A stretch of 64,000 nt of DNA from Candidatus Marsarchaeota G1 archaeon BE_D (GTDB lineage: Archaea; Thermoproteota; Thermoprotei_A; Marsarchaeales; Marsarchaeaceae): contig NEXD01000001.1 in NCBI GenBank assembly GCA_003019595.1, positions 1 to 64,000 on the forward strand. Reading direction: 5' to 3'. Position numbers and translations under genes: made by a program. The notes beneath the pieces were generated by a model. The model was not told where the DNA came from. It saw only the letters and a program-made list of their open reading frames with translations, and did not search any database. Positions 10,956 to 33,215 of the stretch are shown here, piece by piece (positions within the stretch are counted from its first letter, which is position 1; every line of letters starts with the position of its first letter).

Positions 10956-11231
10956 TTAACCACCGTGTACAACTGGTATAATTGTAATTTGATCCCCGTC
11001 GGTAATCTCCGTTTGTGCGTCGTTATAAAGTCTTGCATCAGATCCATTGAGAAGAATTATAACAGATTGAGATATTTTTCCGTCTTTGATAATTCTTGAA
11101 ATGGCCTCTTTTTTTTCATTGAAAAGATCTGTTATAAGTTCAATAAGTTTGACGCGCCCATTAATTTTAATTGTTTTTCCTTCTCCAAGATAGTTTTTTA
11201 ACCATCCAAGCCCTTTTACTTCAACACTCAT
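10956..11231 (-). CDS. Ubiquitin-like small archaeal modifier / MoaD-ThiS family protein
   Basis: A 91-aa beta-grasp protein ending in VVHGG, the Gly-Gly tail that E1-like enzymes adenylate. Such proteins carry sulfur for molybdopterin or tRNA thiolation, or are conjugated to proteins (SAMPs). A TtuA/Ncs6-type tRNA thiolase gene is present at 34476, which would fit the sulfur-carrier role. No MoaE or molybdenum-cofactor genes are seen. First gene of the PRTase-Cgi121 unit. Confidence 0.88.
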   Translation of the reverse strand: MSVEVKGLGWLKNYLGEGKTIKINGRVKLIELITDLFNEKKEAISRIIKDGKISQSVIILLNGSDARLYNDAQTEITDGDQITIIPVVHGG

Positions 11232-11247
11232 TTTTGATCAACCATTT

Positions 11248-11314
11248 ACGGGTCAGCGAGGCGCATGCTCGTCATTAGCTTTATCTGAGCAGGTCAGCAT
11301 GACATCATTCCCGT
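11248..11314 (-). ncRNA. C/D box sRNA guiding 16S rRNA 2'-O-methylation
   Basis: The RNA is flanked by a perfect 5-bp terminal stem, ACGGG and CCCGT. Box C is AUGAUGU directly after the 5' stem; box D is CUGA directly before the 3' stem; box C' is AAUGACGA; D' is degenerate (CUCA or CAGA). The core is 57 nt from C to D, normal for archaea. The D' guide contains CATGCTGACCTGC, perfectly complementary over 13 nt to the 16S gene of this window (28892-28904). Predicted target: G at 28895 or U at 28897, depending on the D' box. The D guide pairs weakly (8-9 nt) with 23S near 29553. It lies between rps17e and the SAMP gene. Confidence 0.88.
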
Positions 11315-11322
11315 GTATTTAA

Positions 11323-11538
11323 TTAAAGTTCTTCAATGACTTCAACCTTACTTTCTCTAATTTTAATTAGGCGAGTAATATATCCAGCTACTTTATTTAG
11401 AGTTTTCTTAGAATCCGTTTCTAAAAATCTTACTAAAATTTTTTTATTTTGCCTAAAATCTTTAGTAAACAACTCTGGATAATTCTCTACCAGTTGTTTG
11501 CCTACTCTTTTTATTGATCTAGTTTTAATTCTACCCAT
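11323..11538 (-). CDS. rps17e: 30S ribosomal protein S17e
   Basis: A 71-aa protein matching S17e: MGRIKTRSIKRVGKQLVENYPELF, then an RNA-binding basic N-terminus and an acidic tail. It is a small-subunit protein shared by archaea and eukaryotes. It is upstream of the C/D sRNA and the SAMP gene on the same strand, so the sRNA may be processed from its message. Confidence 0.95.
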   Translation of the reverse strand: MGRIKTRSIKRVGKQLVENYPELFTKDFRQNKKILVRFLETDSKKTLNKVAGYITRLIKIRESKVEVIEEL

Positions 11539-27740: not shown

Positions 27741-29228
<1,488 letters not shown>

Positions 29229-29404: not shown

Positions 29405-32419
<3,015 letters not shown>

Positions 32420-32647: not shown

Positions 32648-32737
32648 GGTCCGGTCGTATAGCCAGGTCAAGTATCCGGCCCTTTCGAGCTTTAATGGGG
32701 AAAGGCCGTGACCCGGGTTCAAATCCCGGCCGGACCA
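32648..32737 (+). tRNA. tRNA-Glu(TTC) with a 15-nt intron
   Basis: Acceptor GGTCCGG pairs with CCGGACC; T-arm CGGGTTCAAATCCCG. Anticodon stem CGGCC/GGCCG closes loop CTTTCGA after removing 15 nt (32688-32702) at position 37/38. Anticodon TTC. A TATA-like GCTTAAATTTC is about 25 bp upstream. Confidence 0.92.
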
Positions 32738-32815
32738 TACTAAGTTTTTAGTAAATGTACAAAATGTCAAACTTTGATGCAGATTTACATAACTTTTAGC
32801 GCTTTTGTAAAAAGC

Positions 32816-32899
32816 GCTGGGGGCGGGATTTGAACCCGCGCGGCCTTTTAGGCCAAGGGCTTAGCAAGCCCCCTCCCTACCTGGCTAGGAGACCCCAGC
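32816..32899 (-). tRNA. tRNA-Ser(GCT)
   Basis: Acceptor GCTGGGG pairs with CCCCAGC; anticodon loop TTGCTAA; long variable arm TTGGCCTAAAAGGCCGC typical of class II tRNA; T-arm GGGTTCAAATCCC. No intron. Directly next to the SRP RNA 3' end on the same strand. Confidence 0.94.
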
Positions 32900-32900
32900 T

Positions 32901-33215
32901 ATGGCCCCCCCTAAATACGGAAGATATGAGAAGACAAAGTCTTCTCCCTTTAAGTCTTTGCCATTAGACTGAGAACGTGTATGATCGGGAGTTGGGCTGC
33001 TCCCTCCCGGGCCTGACCCGGTCCCTCCCGTAAGCCAATTTATCCATCCCTACGGATGGATAAATTGGCCCCATACACCCCTCAGCCCTAGGCTGCATGT
33101 TAAGGGAGAAGCTGTTTGTCTTCTCATATCTTCCGTATTTAGGGGGTTACTGGCATACGCTTACGCCCATTTCGTACGTGGAGGGAGGGCGAGCCCCTCT
33201 GCCCTACCCAAATCC
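32901..33215 (-). ncRNA. ffs: SRP 7S RNA
   Basis: The S-domain helix 8 signature GTCAGGCCCGGGAGGGAGCAGCC is on the minus strand near 32985-33015 (read in two parts: GTCAGGCCC and GGGAGGGAGCAGCC). The long central helix 5 is formed by two arms of about 32 nt, e.g. AAATACGGAAGATATGAGAA with its complement. At the 5' end GGGTAGGGC/GCCCTCCC and GGCGTA/TATGCC give Alu helices 3 and 4. Length is near 315 nt. With SRP19 and SRP54 (not here) it targets membrane proteins to SecYE/Sec61-beta. The 5' end is approximate; TTTAAAAT near 33215-33222 may be its TATA box. Confidence 0.93.

Follow-up and report, generated by a model that had tools for sequence, protein, structure and literature searches.

The analysed DNA, a 64,000-nt stretch from Candidatus Marsarchaeota G1 archaeon BE_D (the window), contains between the genes rps17e and SAMP a segment of about 67 nt that had been predicted from the sequence to be a C/D box sRNA with a D' guide directed against the 16S gene of the same window. 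Does this locus encode a guide RNA, and which ribosomal nucleotides would it address?

Architecture and genomic context of the sRNA

The original prediction had listed boxes C, C' and D and the terminal stem ACGGG/CCCGU in the spacer between rps17e and the SAMP gene; all these elements are present there and both neighbours were confirmed by Pfam. The strand, which had not been stated, is minus; rps17e and the SAMP-like gene run in the same direction. The features discussed below are as follows:

11323-11538, minus strand: rps17e, directly upstream of the sRNA (Pfam Ribosomal_S17e, synteny)
11248-11314, minus strand: box C/D sRNA, about 67 nt, with the RNA 5' end at 11314 (sequence, architecture scan, orthologues)
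11310-11314, minus strand: terminal stem 5' arm ACGGG, pairs with CCCGU 11248-11252
11302-11308, minus strand: box C AUGAUGU, of which UGAUG is invariant across orthologues
11288-11301, minus strand: D' guide CAUGCUGACCUGCU, conserved, 13 Watson-Crick pairs with 16S 28892-28904
11284-11287, minus strand: box D' CAGA, in register with CUGA or CGGA in relatives
11269-11275, minus strand: box C' AUGACGA (alignment with relatives, architecture scan)
11257-11268, minus strand: D guide GCAUGCGCCUCG, 12 nt, with core CAUGCGCC complementary to 16S 28749-28756
11253-11256, minus strand: box D CUGA (sequence, alignment, architecture scan)
11248-11252, minus strand: terminal stem 3' arm CCCGU, pairs with ACGGG 11310-11314
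10956-11231, minus strand: ThiS/Urm1-like (SAMP) gene, directly downstream of the sRNA (Pfam ThiS and Urm1, synteny)
28749-28756, plus strand: D target, 5' strand of 16S helix 34, predicted 2'-O-methyl site G28750 (E. coli 1051)
28892-28904, plus strand: D' target, 3' strand of 16S helix 34, predicted 2'-O-methyl site G28895 (E. coli 1197)

Read from 11314 to 11248, the RNA has the layout ACGGG-A-AUGAUGU(C)-CAUGCUGACCUGCU-CAGA(D')-UAAAGCUA-AUGACGA(C')-GCAUGCGCCUCG-CUGA(D)-CCCGU, with 12 nt in the D guide, 14 nt in the D' guide and 8 nt in the D'-C' loop. It thus has the marks of the archaeal box C/D class, namely C and D boxes closed by a 5-bp terminal stem (k-turn), internal C'/D' boxes and guide spacers near 12 nt. 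A strict scan for the C-D'-C'-D-stem architecture on both strands of the 64 kb returned this locus as its sole match, and the same architecture was found in none of 20 first-order shuffled windows.

At gathering thresholds, Rfam detected 16S, 23S, SRP RNA and tRNAs in the window and no sRNA. Archaeal C/D sRNAs evolve fast, and a miss at these thresholds is expected. The best model by score, RF01144 (sR17), shares the common box pattern and differs in its guides; at 24.6 bits, the locus stays below the gathering score of 36 bits for that family. Elsewhere in the window, at 32648-33214, the space directly downstream of the 23S gene is tightly filled by the SRP RNA gene and by two tRNA genes lying on opposite strands; one of these, at 32815-32899, abuts the SRP RNA gene.

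Only 8 nt separate the stop of rps17e from the sRNA and 16 nt the sRNA from the start of the SAMP-like gene, all on the same strand. Most archaeal C/D sRNAs are without a promoter of their own and are processed from longer transcripts, and some lie less than 25 nt from adjacent genes (PMC7994747). We infer that the sRNA is expressed and that it is probably excised from an rps17e-SAMP transcript.

Conservation in related genomes

A search at the DNA level across 60 related genomes recovered orthologues in each of the five other genomes searched from the window's family f1 (G001-G005) and in one genome of the sister family f2, the UBA168 group; a covariance model added a second f2 genome (the f2 copies are G006, L074, and G008, L075). 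The gene order thermosome-rps17e-sRNA-SAMP-phosphoribosyltransferase is found in G001-G005; the sRNA invariably occupies the spacer between rps17e and the SAMP-like gene in f1, and rps17e is still near it in f2. The original prediction had proposed looking for the same guide in this spacer of related genomes, and it occurs there in G001-G005. In a pattern scan of a named genome collection, for which about 1.5 chance matches were estimated and which also gave three matches in unrelated bacteria, six copies were recovered; the records that carry them include Candidatus Marsarchaeota G2 ECH_B_1, Marsarchaeota FK_Sedi_B_Bin.208 and UBA168.

Boxes and guides are conserved across the orthologues as is required of archaeal box C/D RNAs. 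All copies compared keep the terminal stem fully (100%) paired, and two of its five pairs have changed on both sides, whereas slid controls reach at most 44%; because there are only five distinct sequences, this covariation carries modest weight. A chance resemblance, or a remnant that is no longer expressed, is exceedingly improbable as an account of the locus, given that boxes, guides and stem are conserved in eight genomes with covariation and a conserved context, and that shuffled windows lack such a structure. The genome also encodes the protein machinery, fibrillarin, Nop5 and L7Ae. Together with the architecture, the conservation in seven related genomes, the stem covariation and the gene context, these genes support the original reading of the locus, a C/D box sRNA whose D' guide is directed at 16S.

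The D' guide and 16S rRNA position 1197

From 11301 to 11289 the D' guide forms 13 exact Watson-Crick pairs with 16S 28892-28904, followed by a terminal G-U as the 14th. This exceeds the at least nine Watson-Crick pairs spanning N+5 that are asked of a guide, and the pairs span G28895. The match had been described as perfect and unlikely to arise by chance, and so it proved: shuffled D' guides reached 13 nt in 1 of 20,000 trials. Both 16S target sites, that of D' and that of D, are invariant in G002-G005. Two extra divergent 16S genes with a bacterial-like helix 34 occur in G005, on contigs C59 and C61 (L066, L067), and are probably contamination of the metagenome bin.

The methylated residue depends on where box D' lies, and the original prediction had left a choice between G28895 and U28897. 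The latter would follow from a box D' reading CUCA, which is indeed present in the window and overlaps CAGA. In the relatives, however, the column reads, in one and the same register, CUGA (G001, G003, G005, G008), CAGA (G002 and G004, as in the window) or CGGA (G006); we therefore read the box of the window as CAGA, so that the N+5 rule gives G28895, which is position 1197 in an alignment to E. coli rrsB. The position methylated in eukaryotes (see below) is likewise 1197 and not 1199. G28895 is thus retained and U28897 is very unlikely to be the site.

A second guide, probably directed at position 1051

The first reading had overlooked the D guide. Its core CAUGCGCC pairs over 8 nt with 16S 28749-28756 and places N+5 at G28750. 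An 8-nt fit alone is weak: 19% of shuffled D guides find one somewhere in the 16S, although only 0.45% do so on this strand of helix 34. Dennis et al. ask for nine pairs, a rule that is relaxed for double guides (PMC4644070); the guide falls below it with eight pairs in the window and reaches nine in G002 and G004.

It might accordingly be argued that only the pairing of D' to G28895 is real, with D as an orphan guide or one aimed at 23S or at a non-rRNA target. Besides the shortness of the 16S pairing, this is favoured by two fits of the window's D guide to 23S, at 31177-31186 (8 Watson-Crick and 2 GU pairs; a similar duplex energy, -16.1 kcal/mol as compared to -16.8 for 16S) and at 29553-29561. 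The relatives speak against it. The core CAUGCGCC is unchanged in all f1 copies, and the 16S fit is kept in every f1 genome with a known 16S. In G002 and G004 the tail of the D guide has changed from UCG to AAG, by which the ninth 16S pair (U28748) is gained and the 23S alternatives are lost, the 23S itself being unchanged; the site at 29553 is moreover mutated in G003 and G005. Both 23S targets are disfavoured because they are broken in relatives. The N+5 site in 16S, furthermore, coincides with a conserved eukaryotic methylation. We therefore consider a single-target RNA rather unlikely and prefer G28750 as the site of the D guide.

In family f2 (G006, G008), where the D guide reads GAUGCGCCUUC(G/U) and is shifted by one, 28427-28435 in the 16S of the window fits it as well as helix 34 does, or better. 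Judged from these sequences, retargeting might possibly be in progress there.

Two strands of helix 34 and one RNA

According to the Rfam structure, the D and D' targets are the opposite strands of 16S helix 34, about 135 nt apart, and the pairs 1052-1206, 1053-1205, 1056-1204 and 1057-1203 lie inside both guide targets. Targets that are far apart in sequence and paired in secondary structure are what is expected of a double guide of the chaperone type. Helix 34 lies beside the decoding site and A-site (the C1054/A1196 surface). As far as the sequences indicate, the support for this two-strand pairing is confined to the window's own family, f1.

In length, C/D'/C'/D boxes and terminal stem, in the 12-nt D guide, the N+5 rule and the 16S target, as well as in its location in a gene spacer, less than 25 nt from its neighbours, the RNA resembles archaeal double-guide box C/D sRNAs (Dennis et al., 2015, PMC4644070; Breuer et al., 2021, PMC7994747). 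Helix 34 does not figure among the distant-site pairs in Table 3 of Dennis et al., as far as the alignment numbering of that table can be converted (PMC4644070). The nearest likeness is to sR15 and sR17 of Nanoarchaeum equitans, proposed chaperones whose two guides likewise address opposite strands of one 16S helix (PMC4644070); these concern helices h30 and h28 and have other sequences, whereas the RNA at 11248-11314 concerns h34 and is conserved across the four genera of its family. In the literature searched, no paper connects Marsarchaeota with sRNA. The individual RNA is new, while its archaeal box C/D kind is well known.

Wider distribution of the 1197 guide

The pattern of a C box, the D' guide and a D-like box occurs in 24 of 229 genomes of the class, and the reversed pattern in one; some of the 24 matches are probably chance or coding. 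Clear C/D sRNAs with the 1197 guide are found beyond f1 and f2 in families f6 and f12, with other second guides. Those of f6 (G056, L096; G058, L097) carry the 1197 guide at D' and share the second guide GAGCACCGAUCUC, for which no convincing 16S target was found. In f12 (G152, L101; G153, L102; G154, L103; G157, L105) the 1197 guide is at D, and the fit of the D' guides is to AAGGCGGAG, which lies about 20 nt upstream of the 1197 region, as judged on one f12 16S (G041). By sequence these would be local double guides. On that 16S the second f12 guide thus fits AAGGCGGAG instead of the other strand of helix 34, and the two-strand arrangement is therefore not general in the class. Found at D' in f6 and at D in f12, the 1197 guide itself is widespread and shifts in position; such a change of guide position has been described for other archaeal guides (PMC4644070).

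Correspondence to eukaryotic methylation sites

Yeast C1274 and A1427 correspond to E. coli C1054 and A1196 (PMC13231172), from which it follows, over three and one residues respectively, that E. coli 1051 and 1197 are yeast 1271 and 1428. Yeast Gm1271 (snR40) and Gm1428 (snR56) are both near full occupancy (PMC5199042) and have counterparts in human, plant and Dictyostelium (PMC8817022). The coincidence with both conserved eukaryotic sites gives independent support to the register of D' and to the target of the D guide. Eukaryotes use two separate snoRNAs for these two 18S/16S positions in yeast and human, snR56/U25 for Gm1428/Gm1490 (E. coli 1197) and snR40/U32A for Gm1271/Gm1328 (E. coli 1051), whereas the archaeal locus would employ a single RNA. 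The likeness is one of target position.

Proposed function and meaning

In the proposed mechanism, L7Ae would recognise both the kink-turn of the terminal C and D boxes and the internal C'/D' motif, with Nop5 and fibrillarin assembling on the sRNA. Pairing of the D' guide with 28892-28904 would direct 2'-O-methylation of G28895 (E. coli 1197), and pairing of the D guide with 28749-28756 that of G28750 (E. coli 1051), probably more weakly. Since each guide addresses one strand of helix 34, the RNP would also hold the two strands apart yet close together until the helix forms. As the best explanation of the observed architecture, conservation, complementarity and machinery genes, we regard it as highly likely that the locus encodes a double-guide archaeal box C/D sRNA with predicted 2'-O-methylation of G28895 and G28750, which would hold both strands of helix 34. 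For the further proposal, that one sRNA places both helix-34 methylations (1051 and 1197) and holds the strands during assembly, the pair being ancient or convergent, we see the chances as evenly balanced.

For an uncultured archaeal group, two methylation predictions can now be put to the test, and helix 34 joins the helices of which a single guide RNA seems to handle both strands. Two further families of the class also carry a guide for the 1197 site, one at D' and the other at D. Because both predicted sites coincide exactly with eukaryotic 2'-O-methyl sites, the RNA is well suited to the question whether such modifications are inherited or re-invented.
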